This document shows, one piece after another, positions 8,706 to 23,439 of a DNA stretch of 23,439 bases (within the stretch, counting starts at the first letter, position 1; every line of letters begins with the position of its first letter). The position numbers and the translations under genes were made by a program. The DNA is from Bacteroidota bacterium (GTDB lineage: Bacteria > Bacteroidota > Ignavibacteria > Ignavibacteriales > Ignavibacteriaceae), in contig JAJYOQ010000014.1 of assembly GCA_021796135.1 (NCBI GenBank), forward strand, positions 1-23,439, written 5' to 3'. The notes below the pieces were generated by a model that did no database searches, was not told where the DNA came from, and worked only from the letters and a program-made list of their open reading frames with translations.

Positions 8706-9893
8706 ATGAGATCAAAAATATTTCTAATTGTCTTTATCGTCTTACCGGCATTTTTCCCGGTCTTCGCTCAGAATATTTCATTAATTCCATATAGGGAAAA
8801 TAATTTATGGGGATTTTGCAGCAAGAATAAAAGGATAATGATTAGTCCTAAATATGATAGTGTAAATACATTTTCCGGTGACTTTGCCCGTGTTATACTT
8901 AATCATAAAACTGGAATGATAAACTTTAGGGGAAAAGAGATTTGCAAGTTAAAATATGACGGTATTTATGATTTTTCTGAAGGTCTCGCTAGAGTTATCC
9001 TTAACGAGAAAATAGGATATATAAATAGATATGGAAAAGAAGTAATACCTCTAATTTTTTCGGATGGATATTCATTTAGTGAAGGTTTAACTGCAGTTCA
9101 ATTGGGCGATAGATGGGGGTTTATTGATAAATATGGCAAAATTATTATTCCGGTAATTTATGACATGGTTTATAGTTTCAAAGATGGACTTGCCGGGGTT
9201 AAATTGCATGACAAAGCCGGTTTTATTAACAAAAAAGGTGTTGCGGTAATTCCTCTTATATTTGATGAAATTCCTTTCTATGAAAAAGATGTTTTTAGAA
9301 ACGGATTATCAGCGGTACGTCAAAATGAAAAATTTGGATTTGTAAATAGCAAGGGTGACTTAGTAATTCCAATGAAATATGACGCAGTTAATTCTTTTAG
9401 TGAAGGTTTCGCTAGTGTTAAGTATAAATTCGATAAATATTGGGGATTTATTAATAAAAAGGATGAAGAAATATCACCTTTTATTTTTGATAAAGTATAT
9501 TTTTTTCATGAGGGATTAGCCGGTGTCGTTATAAAAGATTCAGTAGGTTTTATTAATACTGCCGGGAAGATTGCCATTCCAATAAAATATCAGGACGCAA
9601 ATTCTTTTTCCGAAGGTCTGGCTAGAGTAAAGCTTCATGACAAATTTGGATTTATAAATAAAAATGGAGATATAATAGTCCCGATTGAAAATGATGGGGA
9701 AGGAAATTATTCTGAAGGACTAGCCGCAGTAAAAAGAAGAAATAAATGGGGTTACATTGATAAAGAAGGGAAGACGATAATTCCATATAAATATGATTCA
9801 GCAACATCATTCGATAAAGGAATAGCCCTAATCAAATATGAAGGCAAATTTGGTTATATTAATACCAAAGGGATAGAGTATTGGAATCACTAA
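8706..9893 (+). CDS. Secreted WG-repeat protein
   Basis: A 395-residue exported repeat protein. A Sec signal peptide is clear (MRSK, a hydrophobic run of about 15 residues, then VFAQ around 19-22), with no lipobox. The rest is built of WG repeats of about 33 residues with the pattern W/x-G-F/Y-I-N/D-K-x-G-K-x-x-I-P-x-x-Y/F-D-x-x-x-x-F-S-E-G-L-A-x-V. I count ten full repeats and one final partial repeat ending in EYWNH. The fifth repeat carries a five-residue insertion. WG repeats are thought to form propeller-like or solenoid binding surfaces, but no activity is assigned to most members. It converges on the GH16 gene, leaving only 17 bp between stop codons. Function unknown. Confidence 0.88.
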   Translation: MRSKIFLIVFIVLPAFFPVFAQNISLIPYRENNLWGFCSKNKRIMISPKYDSVNTFSGDFARVILNHKTGMINFRGKEICKLKYDGIYDFSEGLARVILNEKIGYINRYGKEVIPLIFSDGYSFSEGLTAVQLGDRWGFIDKYGKIIIPVIYDMVYSFKDGLAGVKLHDKAGFINKKGVAVIPLIFDEIPFYEKDVFRNGLSAVRQNEKFGFVNSKGDLVIPMKYDAVNSFSEGFASVKYKFDKYWGFINKKDEEISPFIFDKVYFFHEGLAGVVIKDSVGFINTAGKIAIPIKYQDANSFSEGLARVKLHDKFGFINKNGDIIVPIENDGEGNYSEGLAAVKRRNKWGYIDKEGKTIIPYKYDSATSFDKGIALIKYEGKFGYINTKGIEYWNH

Positions 9894-11087: not shown

Positions 11088-12458
11088 ATGCTTAAAAATT
11101 CCAAAATTCTAGTATGCGATGACGATGAGACCCTCTGTTATCTTTTAAAAGAACAATTGCTTGAAGAAGGGTTTAACGTAGATACTGTTTATGACGGCGG
11201 TCTAGCTATTGATGCTGTCAAAAAGAAAAACTACGATTTACTGCTTCTGGACCTTAATATGCGGGAAGTTTCCGGTGAAACGGTACTCAAATTTGTTATT
11301 GATTATAATCCTTCAATTCAAGTCGTAATTTTAACTGCTCAAACTGATATGCGCAATGCTATCGAATGCATTAAAATGGGAGCTTATGACTTTATATCCA
11401 AACCTTATGATTTTGATGAACTTTTAATAACAATCAATAGAGCAATTGAGCATAAGGATTTAGTTTTAAAAACCAATATTTTGACCGAACAAATCGATAA
11501 AAAACTTTCAACCAGAATTATCGGCAACAGTTCAGAACTTCAAAGGGTTATCAATCTGGCTAATAAATCGGCTATTTCTGATTCAAATATATTGATAGAA
11601 GGCGAAACCGGTACCGGAAAAGAACTTTTTGCTGAATATATTCATAAGAAATCTTCCAGACATGATAAACCATTTGTAGTTATTAATTGTGCTTCATTAC
11701 CGGACCAGTTAATAGAAAGCGAATTATTCGGGCATGAAAAGGGCGCCTTTACAGACGCAAAAAATACAAAGCAAGGGTTAGTCGAAATTGCGCACGGAGG
11801 AACATTATTTTTAGATGAAATCGGCGAGTTAAGTTTAACTCTTCAGCCAAAACTTCTAAGGTTTCTTGAAAACGGAGAGTACAGAAGAATCGGAGGAGTT
11901 ACAAATTTAACTTCAAATGTTAGAGTGGTCGGCGCAACAAATAGAAACCTATTAGAAGAAGCTGATAATAAAAATTTTAGGCGAGATCTTTTATTTAGAT
12001 TAAATGTTATAACACTGACTATTCCTCCTCTTCGTGAAAGAAAAGAAGATATTCTTGTGCTTGCAAATCATTTCCTCGAAGTAAAATCTCCGATTAAATC
12101 ACCCAAGAAACTTTCGGCAGATGCAGAAAATGCACTTTTGAATTACAGTTTTCCGGGTAATATCCGGGAGCTGGAACATATTATTGAAAGAGCTCTAATT
12201 TTTGCGGAGAACGATCATATTGAACAGGAAGATTTAAATCTTCCGGCTTCACCCATGCAAACGTCAATGAACCGAAAGTTTATGCCTGAACAAGTTGAAA
12301 GTGACGAAATTTTTAGCATGGAAGAAATGGAAAAAAAACATATTGCAAAAGTATTAGGTGTTTTAAATTGGGATAGAACAAAAACTGCATCGAAGTTAGG
12401 AATTACTCCCAAAACACTTTATACTAAAATTAAAAAATATCAGTTAAAGGAACGATAA
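11088..12458 (+). CDS. Sigma-54-dependent response regulator (NtrC family)
   Basis: A 456-residue activator in the standard three-part layout. The receiver (about 5-120) has D11-D12, phosphoacceptor D55 (LLLLDLNM) and K105. The AAA+ domain (about 143-375) has Walker A GETGTGKE (172-179), the sigma-54 contact loop GAFTDA (219-224), Walker B GTLFLDEIG (238-246) and ELFGHEKGAF. A Fis-type helix-turn-helix lies at the end (NWDRTKTASKLGITPKTLYTKIKK). GAFTDA in place of GAFTGA is a variant of the contact loop. The hybrid kinase gene starts 6 bp downstream, so the two probably form a cognate pair. By analogy with PilR it could control the pilus genes nearby, but no -24/-12 site was found in the window and this is inference. 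Confidence 0.95.
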   Translation: MLKNSKILVCDDDETLCYLLKEQLLEEGFNVDTVYDGGLAIDAVKKKNYDLLLLDLNMREVSGETVLKFVIDYNPSIQVVILTAQTDMRNAIECIKMGAYDFISKPYDFDELLITINRAIEHKDLVLKTNILTEQIDKKLSTRIIGNSSELQRVINLANKSAISDSNILIEGETGTGKELFAEYIHKKSSRHDKPFVVINCASLPDQLIESELFGHEKGAFTDAKNTKQGLVEIAHGGTLFLDEIGELSLTLQPKLLRFLENGEYRRIGGVTNLTSNVRVVGATNRNLLEEADNKNFRRDLLFRLNVITLTIPPLRERKEDILVLANHFLEVKSPIKSPKKLSADAENALLNYSFPGNIRELEHIIERALIFAENDHIEQEDLNLPASPMQTSMNRKFMPEQVESDEIFSMEEMEKKHIAKVLGVLNWDRTKTASKLGITPKTLYTKIKKYQLKER

Positions 12459-12464
12459 TCTTCC

Positions 12465-14447
12465 ATGCCTGAAAAAATTGCTGTTAAGCTAGCTGTTAAT
12501 GTTTTTGCGAAAATTCAAAATCCGGCTTTAGCAATTGTTAATTCAAGTTATAAAATAATTTGGTTTAATAAGAATTTTAAACTTATTGCTGCAGCTAAAA
12601 GAATTAAAAATCAGAATGTTCTGAATTTGTTCGATTTAACATTGACTTCAAAATCTCCCGCTCCCAATAAAATAAAGTCATTTAAAATATTAAACAACGG
12701 AATTCATAAATTACTTTCCTTAATTCCATTAACAAGAAGTGCGGTTCCGGAAGGCTTTCTTGTATCAATTGAAGATATAACCTCAGAAAATAAAAGTTCA
12801 ATTCCTGAAGAAACTTTGGATGAGAATTTACAGTTTCAAAAAGAAATGCAGCAAATTCTTGCATATCTTCTCAAAGAAAAATCATTAAACGGAATATCCG
12901 ATAAAATTATAGAAAGTATTTCATTATTGTCTGATAGTGATTTCGGATTAATTTATTTAAATGAAAAAAACGCCGGTACAGAATTATATTTTTATGATCC
13001 ACATACTCTGATAAAGTCGAATTCAGAATTTAGGAAAAACATTTCAGTAAATTTTACTTACATAAATAAGTGGATAGCAATTAATAAACGCCCGCTAGTT
13101 GTTAATAACTCAACAGAGAACATCGGTTATAATTTAGCTCAGACTCTTCAATGTAATTCTTTAATAATTGCTCCGTGTATTTTTGAGGACAATATATTAG
13201 CATATATAATAGTCGGCAAAAAACATTCTAATTATAAATCATTTGCAGTTAACAAAGTCGAACAGTTTGCTTTAATATTAGCATTTGCTATATCAAGTAT
13301 CCGTTCAAGAGAATTAAATGCTGCGCTTGAAGGAAGATTGGCACAGGCACAGAAACTTGAAACGATCGGAAAGCTTTCAAGCGGAATGGCGCATGATTTT
13401 AATAACCTACTTTCAAGTATTTTCGGAAGTCTGAATCTGTTGAAGAAAAGAGTACCTGAAAGGGAAGATGTAACCAAACTGCTTGAGAATATAGAAAATT
13501 GTTCAATAAGAGCAAAGGATTTGACAAAAGGACTTTTGTCTTTTGGTAAACCTACTCCCAAAAGGAAAGAATTAATAAAGCCTAATACTTTACTTCTGGA
13601 AATTTCAAAAGTTATAAAAGAAACTTTCCCTAAAAGAATCTCATTGAAAGAAAATTTCGCTAAAAACCTGCATGACATACTTGGTAACACTACCGAGATT
13701 TATCAAGTATTGCTGAATCTTGCTGTGAATGCTAAAGAAGCAATTTCCCAAAACGGGGAAATAAACCTGAAAGCACAGAATATTTCAGTAGATGATAAAA
13801 ACTTAATGGATTTCCCTCTTCTTTCAAAAGGAAATTATGTATGGATTTCAGTATCTGATTCCGGAAGCGGTATTGATGAAGAAAATTTAATTAGGATATT
13901 CGACCCATATTTTTCGACAAAGACTAATGATACAAATTCAGGATCCGGACTGGGATTGTATGTTACTTATGGGATAGTAAAAGCTCATAATGGTCAAATT
14001 GAGGTATCAAGTAAGATAGGTGAAGGTACTACGTTTGATGTTTTCATTCCGTCTTATGAACCTACAAAAGTTAAAGTATCGTCTAATGCCGAAAAAATTA
14101 TTCTTCTAGCCGACGATGAAATAATGCTGCGTGATCTTTTAGCGGAATTATTGGAATCTTATGGCTATAGTGTTATGAAGGTTGCTACGGGAGCTGAAGC
14201 TATAAAAATTTTGACGGAAGAAATAAAAGTTGATCTTGCAATAATTGACTATAATATGCCCGAAATGAATGGATTGGATTGCGCGAAAAAAATCAGAGAA
14301 TTAAAGTTTAAATTTCCGATAATTCTTTCATCCGGAAGTTTAGTAATTAATGATAATTTTGATTATACTAAATACGGTGCAAATGGAATGATAGCGAAAC
14401 CATATGAATTTGAAGTAATGCTTGAAACTATAAAAAAATTACTTTGA
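12465..14447 (+). CDS. Soluble hybrid histidine kinase with C-terminal receiver
   Basis: A 660-residue kinase with no clear membrane segment. In order: a PAS-like region (about 12-105, with ALAIVNSSYKIIWFNKNF), a GAF-like region (about 125-280), a dimerisation/phosphoacceptor domain with H310 in GKLSSGMAHDFNNLL, and an ATPase domain with N box NLAVNAKEAI (N422), G1 DSGSGI (466-471) and G2 GSGLGLY (493-499). A receiver follows, with D550-D551, phosphoacceptor D595 (IIDYNMPEMNG) and K645. The GMAHDFNNLL form of the H box is typical of NtrB-like hybrid kinases. It follows the sigma-54 regulator by 6 bp, with AAGGA upstream of its ATG. It ends tail to tail with the minus-strand gene, sharing 9 bp. 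The signal it senses is unknown. Confidence 0.93.
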   Translation: MPEKIAVKLAVNVFAKIQNPALAIVNSSYKIIWFNKNFKLIAAAKRIKNQNVLNLFDLTLTSKSPAPNKIKSFKILNNGIHKLLSLIPLTRSAVPEGFLVSIEDITSENKSSIPEETLDENLQFQKEMQQILAYLLKEKSLNGISDKIIESISLLSDSDFGLIYLNEKNAGTELYFYDPHTLIKSNSEFRKNISVNFTYINKWIAINKRPLVVNNSTENIGYNLAQTLQCNSLIIAPCIFEDNILAYIIVGKKHSNYKSFAVNKVEQFALILAFAISSIRSRELNAALEGRLAQAQKLETIGKLSSGMAHDFNNLLSSIFGSLNLLKKRVPEREDVTKLLENIENCSIRAKDLTKGLLSFGKPTPKRKELIKPNTLLLEISKVIKETFPKRISLKENFAKNLHDILGNTTEIYQVLLNLAVNAKEAISQNGEINLKAQNISVDDKNLMDFPLLSKGNYVWISVSDSGSGIDEENLIRIFDPYFSTKTNDTNSGSGLGLYVTYGIVKAHNGQIEVSSKIGEGTTFDVFIPSYEPTKVKVSSNAEKIILLADDEIMLRDLLAELLESYGYSVMKVATGAEAIKILTEEIKVDLAIIDYNMPEMNGLDCAKKIRELKFKFPIILSSGSLVINDNFDYTKYGANGMIAKPYEFEVMLETIKKLL

Positions 14448-15119
14448 AGTATCTCTTTTCTCTTCATCAAAATCTACCATTTTTATGTTTTTTATATAAT
14501 CTGAAAAGATTGGCTTTTTAATTGAGTTTAATTGATTAAGCACATCATTAATTTCTTTTATTGCTATTTCAATATAATTTAGACTCTTAATGATAGCTTC
14601 TGTAGAAATCTCATCTTTTTTTAATTCTCTTTTAATTGCCGCAGACGATAAACTCATTAAAGTAAGTGGCTGTTTAATTTTATGATTTGCTGTTACGACA
14701 GTAGCTGTGTAAGTATTCTTTTGCTCGGCTTCAAGCAATAATTTTTGTGCTTCAGAAAGTTTAAGAGCAGAATGTATGCGTGCCAGCAGTTCAATCCTAT
14801 TAAACGGTTTTTTTATATAATCAAATGCACCTGCTTCAAGTCCTTCCTTGATATCTTCGGCTTCTGTCTTTGCGGTTACTAAAATTATTGGTATCCGAGA
14901 CGTTGAAGGATCATCTATTAGTGTTTTGCAAACTTCAAAACCGGAAATTTCCGGCATCATTACGTCAAGCAGTATTAAATCGGGGAGTTCTTTTTTAGCT
15001 CTCTCAATTCCGGTTTTACCATCAAAAGCCGTAATTACTTCATATCCCTCACGTTCAAGACGGTCTTGAATCAGGAATACATTTTCAGGAAGGTCGTCTA
15101 TTACCAATATTTTTTTCAT
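14439..15119 (-). CDS. Response regulator with a kinase-type phosphoacceptor helical domain but no ATPase domain
   Basis: A 226-residue protein. The receiver (1-120) is complete: D8-D9 (IDDLPEN), phosphoacceptor D52 (LLDVMMPEISG), T83 and K104. The C-terminal half is predicted helical and holds a histidine-kinase-like H box, TANHKIKQPLTLMSLS (143-158), resembling the HEINQPL form, with candidate H146. No N, G1, F or G2 box follows, so it cannot bind ATP as a kinase. It may pass phosphate as a histidine phosphotransfer-like module or dimerise with the neighbouring kinase. It lies 9 bp after the large hybrid kinase gene, as the last gene of the minus-strand run. Receiver certain; the role of the helical part is inference. 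Confidence 0.88.
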   Translation of the reverse strand: MKKILVIDDLPENVFLIQDRLEREGYEVITAFDGKTGIERAKKELPDLILLDVMMPEISGFEVCKTLIDDPSTSRIPIILVTAKTEAEDIKEGLEAGAFDYIKKPFNRIELLARIHSALKLSEAQKLLLEAEQKNTYTATVVTANHKIKQPLTLMSLSSAAIKRELKKDEISTEAIIKSLNYIEIAIKEINDVLNQLNSIKKPIFSDYIKNIKMVDFDEEKRDTSK

Positions 15120-15128
15120 ATATTCATT

Positions 15129-18100
15129 CTATAATTTAGAAAACAATTTTTCAATTTTAAAAGCCATGACGCTTGAGTTTACGGGTTTCGGAATGTAGTC
15201 GTCAAAACCATGTTTCAGAATTACTTCTTTATCCTCCAGCATTGCCTTTGCGGTTACTGCAAAAATTGGAATACGTTTCCATTTTTCATTCTGTCTGATT
15301 CTGCTTATTGTCTGAAAACCATCCATCCCGGGCATCATTATATCTAATAAAATTAAATCAGGCATTTTCTTGTCAAGTGAAGTTAAACATTCGACACCGT
15401 TTTTTGCAAGGTCGGTTTTACAATTGCAAGCTTGGACAATCTCACTAATTGTAAAAAGCGTATCTGGATCATCATCTACAATTAAAACTTCATGTCGATG
15501 ATCATTCTCATTGGCATCCAAGTTAGAAGTGACTTTTTGCTCCAATGCAGCTTCAATCGAATCTTTATCAACTTTTTTCTCTAAAGTATTTACATTACTT
15601 TCCTGTAGTCTTATTCTGTCACGAACGACCTTGAGAACATCCAGCGGATGCCCGTTGGATTTGACGCTAATTTGTTCAACTATATTATTAAGAGAATTTC
15701 TTTCTTCATCCGATAAATCTTTTGCAGTGCTTATAATAATAGGTATATGCTTAGTCTCTCTGTTAGATTTCAGTTTATGTGACAATGTAATACCGTCAAC
15801 TTTGGGCATTAAAAGATCAAGAATAATTAAGTCAGGTTGAGTCTCAAGAATTTTACTGAATGCAATTTCACTGTCCTGTATGTAATCAATTCTAAGTTGT
15901 TCATTTCGGAAAGCATTCTTAAACTTCTCAAATTCCGTTTCATCATCATCTACAATTGCTATTCTTTCAATCTTTTTCTTTGCAAGATTTTCAAGTCTGC
16001 TAAAAGCCGAAAAAAGCAAATCCGGGGTAATTGGTTTAACAAAATATTCATAAGCTCCCAACCCGTAACCTAAATTTTTATTACTTATGATTGAAATCAG
16101 AATAATCGGAATATCTTTAGTTAATAAATTTTGTTTTAATTCCCTTAAAACCATCCAGCCGTCTTTCCCGGGCATCATTACATCGAGAGTAATTGCAAAC
16201 GGCTGCATCTTTTTTGCTAATTCAATTCCTTTGTCACCGTCTTCAGCATATATTACTTCGTATCCTTTCGAAATTAAATATTGACCTATTGTATAACGAA
16301 CTTCACTGTCATCATCTATAATCAATATCGGATTTTTTTTATTCTTTACTAGTGATTGAATATTAATGTTCTGTATTGCAGTATCGTCTCTAAGCTTAAT
16401 TATGTTTAAAGGAATTATAAACGAAAAGATAGATCCTTTAGCCGGCTCACTTTCGACCGTAAGAGTTCCGTTCATTATGTCGGCAATCTTTTTGCAAATT
16501 GCTAAACCAAGTCCGGTACCGCCGTATTTACGTGTGGTTGTTCCGTCAAGCTGTCTAAATTCTTCAAAAATAATTTTCTGATCTTCCTCAGAAATACCAA
16601 TACCCGAATCAATAACATCAAATTTTAATTTTTTATTTTCAATTGAAGATATTCGCATTTCAACAAAACCGGTATCTGTAAATTTAACTGCATTGCCTAA
16701 TAGGTTTATCAATACTTGAGTAATTTTTCCTCTATCGGTATTAATTACAATTTTTGAATTAATATTTCTTGTAATCTTGAAAGAAATTCCTTTTTGTTTA
16801 ATAAGCGGAGTAACCGAATTATCAATCTCATTTATAAGTTCTTCCAGGTAAATGTCCTCATTGTGAACTTCCATTTTTCCCGCTTCAATTTTTGAAAGAT
16901 CGAGGATATCATTAATAAGTCCCATAAGTCTATTACCGCTTTTCAATACAACTTCCATTCTTTCGCGGTTTTTCCCCGAAAGGGTTAAATCTTCTAATAT
17001 CAATTCTGTTAAACCAAGAACTGAATTCATAGGAGTTCGAAGTTCGTGAGACATGCTAGCCAGGAAATGAGATTTTAATTGTGTTGCTTCTTCAGCTTTC
17101 CCTTTTTGAATTTCAAGCTCTTCAGCTTTTTCTTTGAGTTTTCCGTGCAGGTCAACCAGAGTCTCATTTTGTTTTCTTATTTGTATGTTTTGTTTCTGAT
17201 AATCCTCGTTTAATTTCTTTAATTCAGCGACTAAATTTTCAAGCTTTACAAAAGCAAAAGCATTAGTAAGTCCGATTGCAAGCTGTTCCTGAATTTTTGA
17301 TAGGTATTCTTTAGACTCATTAGACGGATATTCTAGCGCGCCCAGTTCTAAGATCGAAATAACTTTCCCGTTATAAATTATCGGGTTAATCAATAAATAT
17401 CTTAATTGAAGATTTACAGCTCCGGCAGATATAATGGGTAGATCCTTATTATCAGAAAATATTTCTACAGGTTCGTGATTTCGTATTATTGAGTAAAATA
17501 AGTTCAAATTCTTTGAATTAGTAAAATCCTTTTCAATTCCGTAAGAACTGGTAAGAGTAATTTTATCCTCATCTACGGCATATAGACTTCCGACTATAAA
17601 TCCGCAAGTTTTTATAATCTTTTGTAATGCAGCTTCCGAAATTTCCTTAAGTGTCGGATTTTGATTTATTAACGTTATAAACTCGGAATATTCATTCTTT
17701 GCCTTTTCATTTTTTTGTAATTGTTCAAGCATATTATTAAATGCAAGCCCAAGCTTACCCAATTCATCTTTTGATTGAACGATAATTTTATTTTTAAAAT
17801 TACCTTCTTTGGTAATTTCAGTTGCACTGCTAAGCTGAGTAATCTGCCTGCGAATTTTCCCGGTAAAAAGTAATGTTAGTATTAATGACAGCAAAATACC
17901 CGTAAAACCAATTATAAAAAGAAAATATTTTAAACTTGATCTTAAATCGGCAGCTTCGTTTAATGTATTAAAAATTAAAAATTGGAAATTGCTGTTATGG
18001 AGAATACCCATTGTCGGGTTATAAATCGTTGCAATTATATCTGATGATTCTGCCCCTTCCGAATAAACATTAAAGTTATTTTGTCCCGATAATTTCCGGA

Positions 18101-18671
18101 TTGCCTTAGTAAGTACGTAAGAATATTTTTGGTTGGAAGTTTCGTTTGAAACCAAGGCAGGAGTAGAGTTTTTAATAAGAGCTACATCGGCATTAATCTT
18201 ATTTGATAAGTTATTTATATAGCCAATGGTTATAATCTTACCATAGTAATAAATCGTTCCGTCTTTTAATTTATAGCTGTTTAATATTGTATATGGATTA
18301 GAATATAAAAAATCTTGAAGCGAAAAACTTTTCGCCGGCAGCTGAACTATACTTTTATAAAATCCTGAAGAAATAATATTAGGGTATTTATTTTCGGAAA
18401 CTAAAATGAAATCTAAATTCTTGGATTTATTTATTACATCCGGTAATGATATTGAAAAATTATTATTAGCATAGGAAAGAAATTCTTCGTCCATTTCCTG
18501 TATTTGGCTACTGTAAGAATATATAAGATCGTTTGCAGAATTAAGAAGATATTTAGACTGTTGAGAGGAAAGAACTTTGTATATTATTGAATAAAAAGCT
18601 AAAGCAGAACTCCCTAGAATTAAAACTACAATGACAAAATTTATTAATAATATCCGGTAACTGATTTTCAT
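15129..18671 (-). CDS. Membrane hybrid histidine kinase with three receivers
   Basis: A 1180-residue sensor kinase. TM1 (about 8-30) and TM2 (about 248-270) bracket a roughly 215-residue extracytoplasmic sensor of no recognised type. Then come HAMP (about 271-323, with SKDELGKLGLAFNNM), GAF-like (about 330-475), a coiled coil (about 475-535), the H box SHELRTP (H542), the N box NLLGNAVKF (N660), G1 DSGIGIS, G2 GGTGLGL (717-723), and three receivers with phosphoacceptors D830, D952 and D1110. Receivers one and three keep the usual lysine (K879, K1162); the second ends differently (ISVKSNG). It starts 2 bp after a lone receiver gene and is followed 9 bp later by the receiver/phosphoacceptor protein. 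The number of receivers suggests branched phosphate flow. Confidence 0.95.
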   Translation of the reverse strand: MKISYRILLINFVIVVLILGSSALAFYSIIYKVLSSQQSKYLLNSANDLIYSYSSQIQEMDEEFLSYANNNFSISLPDVINKSKNLDFILVSENKYPNIISSGFYKSIVQLPAKSFSLQDFLYSNPYTILNSYKLKDGTIYYYGKIITIGYINNLSNKINADVALIKNSTPALVSNETSNQKYSYVLTKAIRKLSGQNNFNVYSEGAESSDIIATIYNPTMGILHNSNFQFLIFNTLNEAADLRSSLKYFLFIIGFTGILLSLILTLLFTGKIRRQITQLSSATEITKEGNFKNKIIVQSKDELGKLGLAFNNMLEQLQKNEKAKNEYSEFITLINQNPTLKEISEAALQKIIKTCGFIVGSLYAVDEDKITLTSSYGIEKDFTNSKNLNLFYSIIRNHEPVEIFSDNKDLPIISAGAVNLQLRYLLINPIIYNGKVISILELGALEYPSNESKEYLSKIQEQLAIGLTNAFAFVKLENLVAELKKLNEDYQKQNIQIRKQNETLVDLHGKLKEKAEELEIQKGKAEEATQLKSHFLASMSHELRTPMNSVLGLTELILEDLTLSGKNRERMEVVLKSGNRLMGLINDILDLSKIEAGKMEVHNEDIYLEELINEIDNSVTPLIKQKGISFKITRNINSKIVINTDRGKITQVLINLLGNAVKFTDTGFVEMRISSIENKKLKFDVIDSGIGISEEDQKIIFEEFRQLDGTTTRKYGGTGLGLAICKKIADIMNGTLTVESEPAKGSIFSFIIPLNIIKLRDDTAIQNINIQSLVKNKKNPILIIDDDSEVRYTIGQYLISKGYEVIYAEDGDKGIELAKKMQPFAITLDVMMPGKDGWMVLRELKQNLLTKDIPIILISIISNKNLGYGLGAYEYFVKPITPDLLFSAFSRLENLAKKKIERIAIVDDDETEFEKFKNAFRNEQLRIDYIQDSEIAFSKILETQPDLIILDLLMPKVDGITLSHKLKSNRETKHIPIIISTAKDLSDEERNSLNNIVEQISVKSNGHPLDVLKVVRDRIRLQESNVNTLEKKVDKDSIEAALEQKVTSNLDANENDHRHEVLIVDDDPDTLFTISEIVQACNCKTDLAKNGVECLTSLDKKMPDLILLDIMMPGMDGFQTISRIRQNEKWKRIPIFAVTAKAMLEDKEVILKHGFDDYIPKPVNSSVMAFKIEKLFSKL

Positions 18672-18673
18672 TT

Positions 18674-19039
18674 CTATCCATCCCGCTGTAATACTTTTCT
18701 GATAGTGATTAAAAGTTCATCGAAATCGTATGGTTTACTTATAAAATCACTTGCGCCCATTTTTGCCGAATCAATCGCGCTTTTTACATCTGCATAAGCA
18801 GTTAAAACGATAACCTTGATATTGAATTTATTATCTTTAAGTTCTTTGAGAACCTGAAAGCCGTCTTTCCCCGGCATTTTGAGATCAAGTAAAATTAAAT
18901 CTGCTTTATTATTTCGTAAAAAACTAAAGACAGAATTTCCGTCATTAACAGCAAAAGCATCATAACCAACTTCGGTGAGTTCTTCTTTTAGAACTTCGCA
19001 GAGATTAATATCGTCGTCAACTATTAATATTGATTCCAT
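18674..19039 (-). CDS. Single-domain response regulator
   Basis: A 121-residue stand-alone receiver with D8-D9-D10, phosphoacceptor D52 (LILLDLKMPGKDG), T80 and K102, and no output domain. Such proteins act by binding a target or by carrying phosphate between kinases. Its ATG overlaps the stop codon of the secretin gene as TAATG, so translation is very likely coupled to the pilus genes, and the large hybrid kinase follows after 2 bp. Its last helix region (SKPYDFDELLITI, 101-113) is identical to that of the sigma-54 regulator receiver, pointing to a shared origin or a shared partner. Confidence 0.93.
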   Translation of the reverse strand: MESILIVDDDINLCEVLKEELTEVGYDAFAVNDGNSVFSFLRNNKADLILLDLKMPGKDGFQVLKELKDNKFNIKVIVLTAYADVKSAIDSAKMGASDFISKPYDFDELLITIRKVLQRDG

Positions 19040-19041
19040 TA
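19037..19041 (-). promoter_or_regulatory. TAATG stop/start overlap joining secretin and receiver genes
   Basis: On the minus strand the secretin stop TAA and the receiver start ATG share one A (TAATG). This arrangement is a classic sign of translational coupling and ties the signalling genes to the pilus operon. Confidence 0.8.
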
Positions 19042-20328
19042 TTTTTTTATATCTTCACTTTGTGATTCGTTAAATTGATAAACTTTTATTTTATTTCGTT
19101 CTTTTTCCAGCTCTTCTCTTAAAGGATTTTCATCTGGCGGGCTGGCAAATCTATCTTTTAAAGTAGGAACAAGAGAAGCCTTTATTAAAATAACAAGTTC
19201 TTTTTTACTTACCTGGTTAACATCACTGCCGAAAATATACCTTAAACCAAAAAACCACCACGGCAAGTCTTTCAGTAATGGAATTCCGGTTCTAACTTTT
19301 GTAGTCTGATCAATGTACATCCCGCCGATTACCGTTTCTTCACCGTTAAGTAAGACTACTCTTGTATCCGCAGAGGTTTTATTTATTATTGTGTTTGTCG
19401 GATCAGGGACAAATGAACTGCGTTCTACATGAATCTTTAATAAGATATAATGAATATTTCCTTCTTTTATTATATTAGGAGTGACTGTAACAATTGACCC
19501 AACGGAATAAAAGTTGTCAATTATATTGCCGGAAAAATCTTTTTGTTTAATAGAAATATCCTGACCGTCCTGCAACCTTGCATCTGTTCCGTCTAATACG
19601 GTAATAGTAGGGTTTGATATTATTTGCCCTATATTTTCGTTTTCAAACATTTTTAAGACAGCAGTGACTTGCCCAAATAACCCTCCGGCATTAAAGCTTG
19701 AAGTACCGGTAATATTAAAGTCCGGTGAAACCTGAGTCGTTGCACTAGTCGATGTTCCGCCTGTGGTACTTGTGGACGTCCCACTTGCCGATGAGGAACT
19801 TGAAGACTGATTCATTGGTACAAATCCATTTAAATTGCCACCAACACCTGATGTAGCTCCGGAAAATACAGTCTGCCAATTTATGCCTAGTTGTCTCTCC
19901 TTATTTACATCCGCTTCAAAAAATACTGCTGATATTCTAACTTCCCGTGCATCAACCGGTACATAATTATCTTTAGTATGTGTTTGCTCTTGTTGTCCGC
20001 TTTTTTTGATTACAATTAAGTCAGGAGTTTCTTCATAAGAAAGTCCTTGAGATCTTACTAAAACAACAAGCGCTTTCATATAGTTCATGTTTTTTATTTC
20101 AAAACCAATAGAAGAGTCTATCTCGACAGCTGAAATAATTCTTTTCCCGGTCGCCTTTAAGCTAATTTTACTAATAAGAGAGATTGCTTGACTGAAAGGA
20201 ATGTTCGGCGATAGTGAAACCAATTGCTCAGGGTTTTGAGATTGCAGTGATTTTTCCAGATATTGTTGAGAGAATATCTGGATGGATAATAACAGAGAAA
20301 TTATTGCGATATAAAAAATATTTTTCAT
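19039..20328 (-). CDS. pilQ: Short secretin (PilQ/GspD family)
   Basis: Outer-membrane channel subunit for a type IV pilus or related system. The best start is the ATG at 20328, which gives 429 residues beginning with a signal peptide (MKNIFYIAIISLLLSIQIFS) and has AAGAGA upstream. An in-frame codon at 20373 would add 15 charged residues in front and lies inside the preceding gene. Then follow an STN/N0-like domain (about 42-110), an N1-like stretch (PVDAREVRISAVFFEADV), a Ser/Thr/Gly-rich insert (174-197), and the secretin core (about 217-390) with QIISNPTITVLDG, GSIVTVTPNI, NGEETVIGG and the signature GIPLLKDLPWWF (348-359). It lacks AMIN domains and the multiple N domains of typical PilQ, and has no lipobox. 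Its stop overlaps the next gene. Confidence 0.9.
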   Translation of the reverse strand: MKNIFYIAIISLLLSIQIFSQQYLEKSLQSQNPEQLVSLSPNIPFSQAISLISKISLKATGKRIISAVEIDSSIGFEIKNMNYMKALVVLVRSQGLSYEETPDLIVIKKSGQQEQTHTKDNYVPVDAREVRISAVFFEADVNKERQLGINWQTVFSGATSGVGGNLNGFVPMNQSSSSSSASGTSTSTTGGTSTSATTQVSPDFNITGTSSFNAGGLFGQVTAVLKMFENENIGQIISNPTITVLDGTDARLQDGQDISIKQKDFSGNIIDNFYSVGSIVTVTPNIIKEGNIHYILLKIHVERSSFVPDPTNTIINKTSADTRVVLLNGEETVIGGMYIDQTTKVRTGIPLLKDLPWWFFGLRYIFGSDVNQVSKKELVILIKASLVPTLKDRFASPPDENPLREELEKERNKIKVYQFNESQSEDIKK

Positions 20329-20338
20329 TTTAATTCTC

Positions 20339-21232
20339 TTACTTGTTTTTCTTACTAGTGCTGTCTTTATCAAGAGTTAAATCGACCTTTTCAATAATTC
20401 CTCCCTTATTAAGAATAAAGCTTACTGTGTTATGATCATAATCAATCTTTGTTAGATAACCCAAATAAACACGCTGCCCTTCCCATAAAAGATAGGTATT
20501 TCCTTTGCCGTCGGATAAAAAAGCCCCTTCCGGGACTAATGCTAAAAGTTTAGCCCCATGAACATCCAAAAGATTGTCTGAGTTAGGAGGGATTTCATTT
20601 CTAATCAGAGGATAAAAAACGTCATACACTCCCCGGGTATTTAAGTTATTTTCTACAAATTCTTTAGTTGAAAACCGATCATTATCGGAAAAGTAGACGT
20701 CTGCGGTCAAGCTAAAATTTACCAAAAAATTAGGGAACCCGTCTTTATCGGTAGAGATATAATTTGTTAAACTTATAGTTTTTATTTTTTTTAAGTCCTT
20801 GCTCTGTTCGATAGAATAAATTAGCTTGTATAAATCATTGTAATCACCGCCTCCGGTAATTTTATATTCATAGTAGAAAAAATTTTTATCCGATTTTTTA
20901 TCAACAAACTCAACATTGACTTGTGTATTATCAGAAAAATTAATGCTTTGATCATTAACGAATTTAAAGAAATTTATAGAAGATAGATTTTCAGGTATGT
21001 TAAATTTTCTTTTCGCCAGTATTGAGTCCAGAGAAGCTGCTGTTTTTTTAAGAGTTAAATATTGTGCATTTAATGCGTCTGTATTATAAAGATTTTTTTT
21101 CAATTGCGTAAGTTTTATCTGATCATTTTCAATAGTATGTAATTGATAAAAGAAAATAAAACTGCCTCCCAAGACAATAATGATTATAAGTAATCCGAAT
21201 AAAGCTAATGTATTTTTTATTTTTCTATTCAT
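20339..21232 (-). CDS. pilOP: PilO-PilP fusion protein of the pilus inner-membrane platform
   Basis: A 297-residue protein with one N-terminal membrane anchor (about 10-29), a short coiled coil (about 30-75) and a PilO-like ferredoxin-fold region (about 80-185), with YYEYKITGGGDYNDLYKLIYSIE in the position of the PilO core. After a linker (about 185-205) comes a PilP/GspC-HR-like domain: VFYPLI (205-210), then DVHGAKLLALVPEGAFL (223-239), NTYLLWEGQRVYLGYLTKI (245-263) and VSFILNKGGIIEKVDL (270-285). In known systems PilO pairs with PilN, and the lipoprotein PilP reaches the secretin; here one chain would span both roles and no lipobox is needed. It starts in an ATGA overlap with the upstream gene. 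The PilO half is well supported by position, the PilP half by pattern. Confidence 0.75.
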   Translation of the reverse strand: MNRKIKNTLALFGLLIIIIVLGGSFIFFYQLHTIENDQIKLTQLKKNLYNTDALNAQYLTLKKTAASLDSILAKRKFNIPENLSSINFFKFVNDQSINFSDNTQVNVEFVDKKSDKNFFYYEYKITGGGDYNDLYKLIYSIEQSKDLKKIKTISLTNYISTDKDGFPNFLVNFSLTADVYFSDNDRFSTKEFVENNLNTRGVYDVFYPLIRNEIPPNSDNLLDVHGAKLLALVPEGAFLSDGKGNTYLLWEGQRVYLGYLTKIDYDHNTVSFILNKGGIIEKVDLTLDKDSTSKKNK

Positions 21233-22773
21233 TTTTCGTCTTTATGATAACTTGAGAGACTAAAAGATAGCGTAAATTTATATACATTCTTATCACGCAA
21301 TATTTGATAATCTATATTCTTTAATTCGGCTGATTTTATTGAATAAGCAAATTCAGTCAGCACATTTTTAGATAAAGAATACCCTTCGATTGATACATTC
21401 CCTGTTTCGGCTTTTGCTAATTTTGTTAACCAAAATTCTTTATTCTGAGATACAAAATCGGATATTTTTCTTAAAACATCAGACCACGTGCCAGCCCCTA
21501 AAGAAGCTGAATCCAATATAGACTGTGTTTGCGAAAATCCATTAATTTTTCCTTGCAATTCAGAGATGTTATTCAGGATTCCCTGATTTTGTCTCATCAC
21601 AAAAGTCTGTTTATTTATCTGAGAGGATAGTTCCTTCATCGTAATATTGTAATTCAATATTTTAATTGTAATAAAAAGCGCAGCAAAAAATAAAAGAGGC
21701 AGCATTGCAAAGCCATGCCATGCAAACTGAAATACTTTTTGTTCTTCTTTAACATATTTTGGTAAAAGATTGATTCCTTTATGCAAATTATCGAGATCGT
21801 CGAAATAATCGACCGCAGAAGAAATTGGAATGCTAAAAGAGGATAATTTCTCTTTTGAATTTGAGTCAAGCGAACTAATATCAATATCTGAAAATTCTAA
21901 CTTGGATACATTTGCTTCAGGGAAAGTGCCGTAAAAAGATAGAATCAAATTTTCCGAATCATCTTCGCCGCAAACAACAATATTATCTAAAGATGAAATT
22001 CCGCCATTTTCCATTTCCAATAAGATTTTGGAAAAATAAACATCATATGTGTGAAGGTTAACCGTTCCTATATCAAGCGCACTGCCTATATGTTTTATTT
22101 TTCTGCCTTGTAGGAATATTAGTTTACTATATTCTCTTCCTATATAAACCAATAATGAACTGTCATCCGGGAAGAATTTTTTCCTTTTTGCAACATAGTA
22201 AGCGAGAGATATTTCAGCGCTTTTAACAGAAGGAATTTTATAAAATCTTCGATTGTTGTAATGAGCTATTGAGTCAACCAGTCTAATACAGCCAATTTCA
22301 CCATTTAAAAAAACAGAAAGAATAGATTTGTCAGCAAGCTCAACATAACTTAAATTATCTTCGTCTATATAAGTGTTCTGTGTTTGTTTAATATCCTTGA
22401 TAATCTCTTGAGTAATATTATTGCTGCCCTTGATTTTATTCTCTTCAACCAGGTGATAGTAAATGGAAGGTTCTGTAAGTGAAGGAATGAATAAGCTCTT
22501 TTTTAGGTTATATTCTTTTAGAGTTTCACTAATCTGACCTATGCTTGAAAAGGTAACTCTTTTATCTTCCGAAGAATTAATATCTAAACTTCCGTCAACC
22601 GATAAATCGCCGCCTTCAATTCTAAGTCCGCTTATTGCGTCTTCCAAACCGATAGCTGTTTGAATGACATCAAAATTACCGGTTTTTAAAAGTTTGATTT
22701 TATCTTTTTCTTTTAAGAAAACAGCTAGTTTTGTATCGTTGCCTTCGCAATATATGCAGATAATTGTATTCAT
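21229..22773 (-). CDS. pilMN: PilM-PilN fusion protein (GspL-like) of the pilus inner-membrane platform
   Basis: A 514-residue protein. Residues 1 to about 325 form an actin-like PilM/GspL-type cytoplasmic domain (strands such as SSLLVYIGREYSKLIFL at 205-220 and DNIVVCGEDD at 263-272). The usual PilM phosphate loop GxDIGSxxxK is replaced by CIYCEGNDTKLA, so ATP binding is doubtful. Then comes GINLLP (333-338), the PilN signature, a membrane helix (about 350-373), a coiled coil (about 377-415) and a PilN-like periplasmic fold (about 428-505: TWSDVLRKI, EFWLTKL, VSIEGYSLS, FTLSFSL). PilM and PilN are normally separate, with the INLLP peptide of PilN docked in PilM; here they are one chain, the arrangement of GspL in type II secretion. 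It overlaps its neighbours by TAATG and ATGA. Confidence 0.85.
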   Translation of the reverse strand: MNTIICIYCEGNDTKLAVFLKEKDKIKLLKTGNFDVIQTAIGLEDAISGLRIEGGDLSVDGSLDINSSEDKRVTFSSIGQISETLKEYNLKKSLFIPSLTEPSIYYHLVEENKIKGSNNITQEIIKDIKQTQNTYIDEDNLSYVELADKSILSVFLNGEIGCIRLVDSIAHYNNRRFYKIPSVKSAEISLAYYVAKRKKFFPDDSSLLVYIGREYSKLIFLQGRKIKHIGSALDIGTVNLHTYDVYFSKILLEMENGGISSLDNIVVCGEDDSENLILSFYGTFPEANVSKLEFSDIDISSLDSNSKEKLSSFSIPISSAVDYFDDLDNLHKGINLLPKYVKEEQKVFQFAWHGFAMLPLLFFAALFITIKILNYNITMKELSSQINKQTFVMRQNQGILNNISELQGKINGFSQTQSILDSASLGAGTWSDVLRKISDFVSQNKEFWLTKLAKAETGNVSIEGYSLSKNVLTEFAYSIKSAELKNIDYQILRDKNVYKFTLSFSLSSYHKDEK

Positions 22774-23439
22774 TACAAAGCAGCTAAAATTTGAGTGATT
22801 ACAGTTTTATTATTAGCATAAGCAATTGCATTTTCGAGAGAAATTTTTTTGTTAAGATACAATTTCTTTAAATCCTGCTCCATTGTGTTCATTCCATATT
22901 GAGAACCTTGATTGATCATCATATATATTTCACTGGTGTTATTATTCTTTATAGCGGCTTTAACGTTCGGGGTTACTACCAAGACTTCCTTTGCCAGCAC
23001 TCTTTTGCCGTCTAAGCTCGGAACTAGTTTTTGTGATACGATTGCTACAAGTACATCGGCAAGTCTGTTCCGAACCCGGTCTTGTTCTGCAGGATTAACT
23101 TCGGCAACAATCCTGTCTATTGACTCTACGGCGCTTGAAGTATGCATTGTTGAAAAAACTTTATGACCGGTATCGGTAACTTCAAGTGCCGCAAGTATTG
23201 TTTCCGGGTCTCTAATTTCGCCTATAACTATTATGTCCGGATCCTGTCGTAAAGACTGAATAACACCTTCTTTAAAATTTAAAACATCTCTTCCGACTTC
23301 TCGGTGTTTTATAATAGCAGTATTAGAATTATGTACGAATTCAATTGGCGATGCAATGATTACTATATGACAAGGATCAATTCTATTATGCTCATCAATT
23401 ATTGCATCAAGAGTAGTGGATTTTCCAGAACCTGTAATT
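22773..23439 (-). CDS. pilT: PilT-like retraction ATPase (N-terminus beyond the window)
   Basis: The reading frame is open to the window edge; 221 C-terminal residues are visible. They contain Walker A TGSGKSTT, REVGRD, Walker B DPDIIVIGEIRDPET, the His box HKVFSTMHTSSA and SIDRIVAEVNPAEQDRVRNRLADVL, which mark the PilT/PilU branch of the secretion ATPases rather than PilB. The position of the usual acidic EDPIE box reads A-S-P-I-E, so two conserved acidic residues are missing, and the retraction motif near AIRNLRE reads A-I-K-N-N-N-T. The Walker B glutamate is kept. An internal ATG at 23147 is not the start, because strong motifs lie upstream in the same frame. Its stop overlaps the start of the PilM-PilN gene as TAATG. 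Confidence 0.93.
   Translation of the reverse strand, partial: ITGSGKSTTLDAIIDEHNRIDPCHIVIIASPIEFVHNSNTAIIKHREVGRDVLNFKEGVIQSLRQDPDIIVIGEIRDPETILAALEVTDTGHKVFSTMHTSSAVESIDRIVAEVNPAEQDRVRNRLADVLVAIVSQKLVPSLDGKRVLAKEVLVVTPNVKAAIKNNNTSEIYMMINQGSQYGMNTMEQDLKKLYLNKKISLENAIAYANNKTVITQILAAL

Follow-up and report, generated by a model that had tools for sequence, protein, structure and literature searches.

Does a PilM-PilN fusion encoded beside a pilT gene belong to a type IV pilus, to a type II secretion system (T2SS), or to something between the two? The question is raised by a contig of a Bacteroidota bacterium of the family Ignavibacteriaceae (assembly GCA_021796135.1, contig JAJYOQ010000014.1), of which positions 1 to 23,439, a stretch of 23,439 nucleotides here called the window, were analysed. 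The original prediction, made from the sequence alone, had recognized the fused protein, here PilMN (P0001), and had suggested that the locus may be an intermediate between the two machine types. We conclude, with a probability of roughly 85%, that a retractable type IV pilus has the pilMN product as its two-in-one stator, with PilOP (P0002), the product of an overlapping gene, as the partner. The features on which this reading draws are as follows.

22773..23438, minus strand: pilT, a PilT-family ATPase, 221 amino acids (aa) seen, its 5' part lying beyond the window end (TIGR01420, 258 bits, residues 2-211)
21229..22773, minus strand: pilMN, fused PilM-PilN, 514 aa (open reading frame, profiles, model)
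21778..22773, minus strand: PilM-like actin fold, residues 1-332
21760..21774, minus strand: INLLP, residues 334-338
21655..21726, minus strand: membrane helix, about residues 350-373 (hydropathy peak 355-373; inside a modelled helix, 346-414)
21259..21495, minus strand: PilN-like periplasmic alpha/beta domain, residues 427-505 (PF05137, PilN profile matches, modelled secondary structure)
20339..21232, minus strand: pilOP, PilO plus a probable PilP/GspC-HR module, 297 aa (profiles, hhalign)
20672..21232, minus strand: PilO part, residues 1-187
20363..20620, minus strand: probable PilP/GspC-HR module, about residues 205-290
19039..20373, minus strand: short secretin, 444 aa from a TTG start (PF00263, 100.2 bits)

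The fusion beside pilT was borne out: pilMN is one open reading frame (ORF) of 514 codons running on the minus strand from 22773 down to 21229, overlapping pilT by one base and pilOP by four; the plus-strand reading of the same stretch contains many stops. Structure prediction found the expected actin-like PilM fold over residues 1-332. This N-terminal part has the fold of PilM and also that of the cytoplasmic domain of GspL, and in profile comparison its match to PilM was much better than that to EpsL. INLLP, which we take to be the PilM-binding peptide of PilN, does lie at residues 334-338, ahead of the membrane helix as in PilN, and its P338 is kept in all rows but one of each of two alignments (54/55 and 22/23). 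The phosphate motif GxDIGS has indeed been lost from the PilM half, DIG[ST] occurring in 0/55 and 0/23 rows. The most conserved stretch of PilMN, with 58 of the 79 invariant columns, is residues 184-289 (window 21907-22224), a candidate docking site for PilB and PilT.

For the C-terminal half, PF05137 matched 41 of 50 A1 members at E ≤ 0.1 (best 1.1e-6) and nine of the 23 divergent A4 members at E ≤ 1 (best 1.3e-5). The solved PilN of Myxococcus xanthus (3jc8_Na) was found by the A2 profile with an E value of 0.0016 and by the A4 profile with 3.5e-10. PF05137 exceeded its cut-off in 13 genomes of the phylum sample described below, with four hits in PilMN (G052, G118, G129 and G181) and nine elsewhere. 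Searches with P0001 itself were less favourable, and two of them weigh against our assignment: PF05137 scored 16.6 bits over residues 445-505, under its cut-off of 22.8, and PF11104 (PilM) gave no match at E ≤ 1 or E ≤ 10. The Pfam comparison that the original prediction had proposed was thus upheld for PilN, below cut-off, and failed for PilM; the GspL models did not match P0001 either, PilN alone being matched at E ≤ 10. A search of PDB sequences with P0001 alone returned unlikely hits only (photosystem II D1, E 0.06-0.07). Two of 23 PilMN members matched a SPOR domain (best 3.6e-6); by alignment these are probably the members with long C-terminal tails (L091:8391-10658, minus strand; L092:7760-10117, plus strand), and the SPOR match suggests peptidoglycan binding by the pilus base.

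The proposed survey of the fusion was carried out at two scales. A profile scan of genome contigs, from records of Ignavibacteria, Bacteroidetes and similar, yielded 43 PilMN loci, in which PilMN has PilT (42/43), PilOP (41) and secretin (39) as neighbours, the missing ones being absent because their positions fall beyond contig ends. In L007, L033 and L038, PilC and PilB lie ahead of PilT, and regulator- and kinase-sized ORFs follow the secretin gene. The second sample comprised 198 genomes of a single phylum, that of G001, which contains L033 (Ignavibacteriota; GTDB places such genomes in Bacteroidota). The A2 profile matched 69 of them and the broader A4 profile 73, the same 69 plus G040, G095, G157 and G205. 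In all but one of the 73 genomes, 72 in number, the match runs in a single frame from profile position 77 or earlier to 514 or later (of 530); within the matched stretch there is a TAG in G032 and a TGA in G198. In 20 loci from 19 of these genomes, PilT, PilOP and secretin adjoin PilMN in every case. Fusion, fold and profile relationships, gene order and conservation are thus seen directly.

No stand-alone pilus PilM was found by PF11104 in ten genomes, and three candidates for an unfused or orphan gene were rejected. The split PilMN of G189 (L098:9005-11843) does not represent an ancestral unfused state, its halves being parted by an ORF on the other strand with a transposase DDE domain (PF13612, 9.3e-13); a second, one-frame copy is present in the same genome (L097). 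G088 has its two halves on separate contigs, with the PilN half beginning at base 140-143, and gives no sign of an ancestral unfused state either. An orphan PilM_2 protein (L052:10759-11685, plus strand; 34.3 bits, cut-off 27) is without an adjoining PilN and has hrcA/grpE/dnaJ-like and rsmD/coaD-like neighbours, named by eye; it is perhaps related to the actin-fold protein BT_3980 (3hrg).

Might P0001 nevertheless be the GspL of a T2SS, or mark an evolutionary intermediate between such systems and type IV pili? The GspL-like domain order had been correctly noted: GspL, EpsL and PulL likewise carry an actin-like cytoplasmic domain, one membrane helix and a PilN-like periplasmic domain in one chain. 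Here, however, the actin-like half is PilM-sized, the operon includes pilT, and a PilP-like module is joined to PilO. PilT, which had been taken to argue for a pilus, adjoins PilMN in 42/43 and 20/20 loci, although absence of PilT would be expected of a T2SS, described as a type IVa pilus (T4aP) that has lost PilT (PMC10191384); the so-called T2SS of Bacteroidetes cluster with T4aP (PMC6668835). Besides the far better match of the actin-like half to PilM than to EpsL, PilB and PilQ of L007 outscore their secretion counterparts (PilB 437 versus GspE 387 bits; PilQ 112 versus GspD 92), PilC scoring 132 versus 140 for GspF. PilB, PilC, PilT and secretin of a T4aP are present in relatives, the NCBIfam cut-off being passed by PilT only, and PilM, PilN and PilO were identified by profile comparison. 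The window PilT, being truncated, stays under the TIGR01420 cut-off at 258 bits; its full-length L007 relative reaches 322.6 (cut-off 319.1). Furthermore, the phylum has separate, T2SS-like clusters, which unlike PilMN loci carry canonical prepilins and encode PilO and GspC-like proteins in separate genes, with PilT not recognized. PilT and a PilM-sized actin half therefore indicate a pilus-type machine: of the original prediction, the pilus-type, GspL-like fusion stands, the intermediate status is unsupported, and we consider a GspL or an intermediate improbable. An origin of the fusion in faulty sequencing or gene calling is refuted for practical purposes by its occurrence in dozens of genomes as one frame of about 510-790 aa covering nearly the whole profile.

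The second, T2SS-like clusters (L139-L145, L148 and L149), which combine a canonical prepilin with an A24 peptidase, also encode proteins of 395-508 aa, several with PilN matches, which resemble a further PilM-PilN fusion of GspL-like type. Compared with these, PilMN scored 54% with an E value of 1.3e-4, the match being confined to residues 310-480.

In PilOP, residues from about 205 to 290 form a probable PilP/GspC-HR module. The bridge that links it to GspC-like proteins was provided by stand-alone 'RDPF' proteins encoded in the second clusters: hhalign against the stand-alone GspC-like proteins scored 29.6 (E 7.4e-5, probability 62%, 34 columns), the best of 125 decoys scoring 15.6, and hmmsearch gave an E value of 2e-4 in two of nine such proteins. 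Several results count against this identification. The predicted structure of the PilP-like part has a model confidence (pLDDT) below 50; comparison with shallow E. coli-type GspC and HofP profiles gave probabilities of 1.1% and 0.4%, the best of 76 decoys reaching 4.9%; and PilP and T2SSC are absent among the matches listed for PilOP (25 of 42 families). PF04351 exceeded its cut-off in 0/198 genomes, a weak test in that the control was matched in 1/14 and never over cut-off. The window secretin scored 117.7 with TIGR02515 (PilQ) and 90.0 with TIGR02517 (GspD), each below cut-off; an in-frame ATG lies 15 codons downstream of its TTG start. Secretin is the sole domain recognized in it, and relatives are mostly about 400-435 aa long, with lengths of 629 aa in L089 and 664 aa in L090.

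From these data we infer that PilMN and PilOP form a complex on which motors dock, and that the machine functions as a pilus. The actin-like PilM half would be the cytoplasmic socket for the motors PilB and PilT, and the INLLP linker, membrane helix and PilN half would carry this socket through the inner membrane. PilO pairs with PilN in known pili; here PilOP would contribute its PilO part to that pairing and touch the secretin through its PilP/GspC-HR-like module. The chain from socket through membrane and periplasm to secretin, four proteins in model pili, would here consist of two polypeptides, each fixing 1:1 proportions. In model pili, a groove on PilM receives this PilN peptide. As the peptide is tethered in PilMN, a switch based on PilN release could operate only as a movement within the molecule.

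What does such a machine assemble? Evidence on pilin and peptidase comes from the genomes of relatives only. Upstream of pilC these carry one or more genes for proteins of 121-149 aa. The genes begin with [ATG/GTG/TTG]-G-QQQLLLIVLGVIIVG or close variants, with an amphipathic segment next and variable sequence at the end, so that the protein start reads M-G-QQQLLL (MG proteins), with no leader and no Glu5. A scan of 75 loci (L001-L043, L083-L102 and L150-L161) gave 89 MG starts, of which 87 belong to full-length proteins; they are spread over 48 loci, the remaining 27 having none. A class III leader with Glu5 was found in none of the 87. Nearly all of these genes leave no space for a leader, because an in-frame stop lies within 12 codons upstream in 86/89 and within four in 56, an in-frame Met farther upstream occurring in one; known leaders have 6-26 residues. 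Published surveys give this leader range, describe Glu5 as near-invariant in bacteria and report a peptidase in all listed phyla but Nanoarchaeota (PMC4471445). Gapless alignment with 11 canonical prepilins from the second clusters gave a best register (13.6; next, -2.8) in which the cleavage site falls some three residues after the MG start Met and a consensus Leu occupies the Glu5 position. An alignment by hand had put this Met at position -1, a placement that was dropped as the computed scores favour -3; since the two registers differ, we claim only a start within about three residues of the cleavage site.

The A7 profile, built from 24 MG proteins, matched 74/198 genomes: 73/73 with PilMN and 1/125 others (Fisher p 3e-54), the exception, G109, being weak (3.7e-4). 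In G103, G130, G150 and G153 there are six or seven matches each, some off the pilus-locus contig; these would be paralogous leaderless pilins, perhaps minor pilins.

For prepilin peptidase, PF01478 matched 29/198 genomes (27 over cut-off), eight of them among the 73 with PilMN; a phylum-specific profile built from 11 peptidases (A6) matched 31/198, adding among PilMN genomes only G181, a doubtful, partial match within a 503-aa frame. Neither profile detected a peptidase in 64 of 73 PilMN genomes, and the two genes are not associated (9/73 versus 24/125, p 0.24). Many sampled genomes are probably metagenome-assembled and possibly incomplete; the absence extends to the roughly full-size, one-contig genomes G001, G134, G142 and G198 (3.3-3.7 Mb). 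In the eight PilMN genomes with a peptidase, it always lies in a separate T2SS-like cluster, on a different contig from PilMN in G024, G087, G126, G153 and G173, and at about 18 kb in G149, 52 kb in G029 and 0.5 Mb in G075. A canonical GFSLTE prepilin accompanies it in eight of nine peptidase clusters, and the PilMN loci of peptidase-bearing genomes (L087, L150-L156) still have MG-QQQ pilins.

We thus favour, with some reserve, a retractable bacterial type IV pilus that does without leader peptide, Glu5 and prepilin peptidase, its base compacted from four proteins to two. With like caution, we read its pilin as leaderless: starting Met-Gly-Gln-Gln-Gln-Leu no more than about three residues from the canonical cleavage site, it would need at most removal of methionine. 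Extended from relatives to the organism of the window, this suggests a pilin translated nearly mature. The MG proteins would then form the fibre of a working machine with no other enzyme trimming them. The alternative, that MG-QQQ proteins are not pilins and that true prepilins and a peptidase, too divergent to detect, lie elsewhere in these genomes, seems to us the less probable account but one to be taken seriously. In its favour, and against a leaderless pilus, the MG proteins lack a solid pilin family match: ComP_DUS matched one of ten tested at 9.4e-5, under cut-off, and two more at E 0.05-0.14, and it also matched the canonical pilin of L139 (3.1e-7). Some peptidases of the phylum, moreover, barely reach PF01478 (22.5-28.8 bits). 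Yet neither N_methyl nor PF01478 matched any of 26 PilMN genomes, while controls were matched in 8/14 and 12/14; the results of the phylum-specific peptidase profile were almost identical; and MG proteins accompany PilMN throughout.

Several known systems can be compared with the locus. It shares relatives of PilM, PilN and PilO and a probable PilP module with PilMNOP of the T4aP of Pseudomonas aeruginosa, M. xanthus and Neisseria meningitidis, and PilB, PilC, PilT and a PilQ-like secretin are likewise nearby; here, however, there are two polypeptides instead of four. PilP of model T4aP is a lipoprotein, whereas here the PilP part would be anchored via PilO. PilO and PilP also occur in one chain in Pseudomonas putida (Q88CU9), and the passages of PMC3169554 on such fusions mention no PilM-PilN fusion; here both pairs are fused. 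The Cytophaga-type T2SS of Bacteroidetes (CHU_3191-3202), with divergent PilM/N/O/P-like parts, belongs to the same wider group (PMC5553014); similar clusters occur in the sampled phylum, and unlike PilMN loci this system has its own A24 peptidase. Loci of MSHA pili also lack a prepilin peptidase, but their genomes have that of another system (PMC6668835). In the open-licence literature, which leaves most subscription papers outside the search, we found no description of a PilT-bearing pilus with PilM-PilN and PilO-PilP fusions, or of leaderless pilins.

Past the pilus genes, window 11088-19039 encodes two hybrid kinases, single response regulators and a sigma-54 activator; L007 and L033 have ORFs similar in size and order, and L007, L033 and L038 have ORFs matching the first response regulator in size and place. 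Individual features of this flank and beyond are:

18674..19039, minus strand: single-domain response regulator after the secretin gene (PF00072, 99.5 bits)
15129..18671, minus strand: hybrid histidine kinase with HAMP, HisKA, HATPase and three receiver stretches (domain search)
8706-9893: protein with ten WG repeats (PF14903)

Equimolar parts have been argued from PilO-PilP fusions and 1:1 complexes (PMC3169554). As both pairs appear covalently fixed here, the stoichiometry of PilM, PilN, PilO and PilP becomes testable, and a two-polypeptide base offers a machine of fewer parts for motor studies. The processing of prepilins is regarded as a core step in all type IV filaments (PMC4471445). The PilMN/MG locus type occurs in about one third of the sampled phylum genomes; if true, a lineage so widespread and seemingly without leader, Glu5 and peptidase would show what roles cleavage, methylation and Glu5 play.
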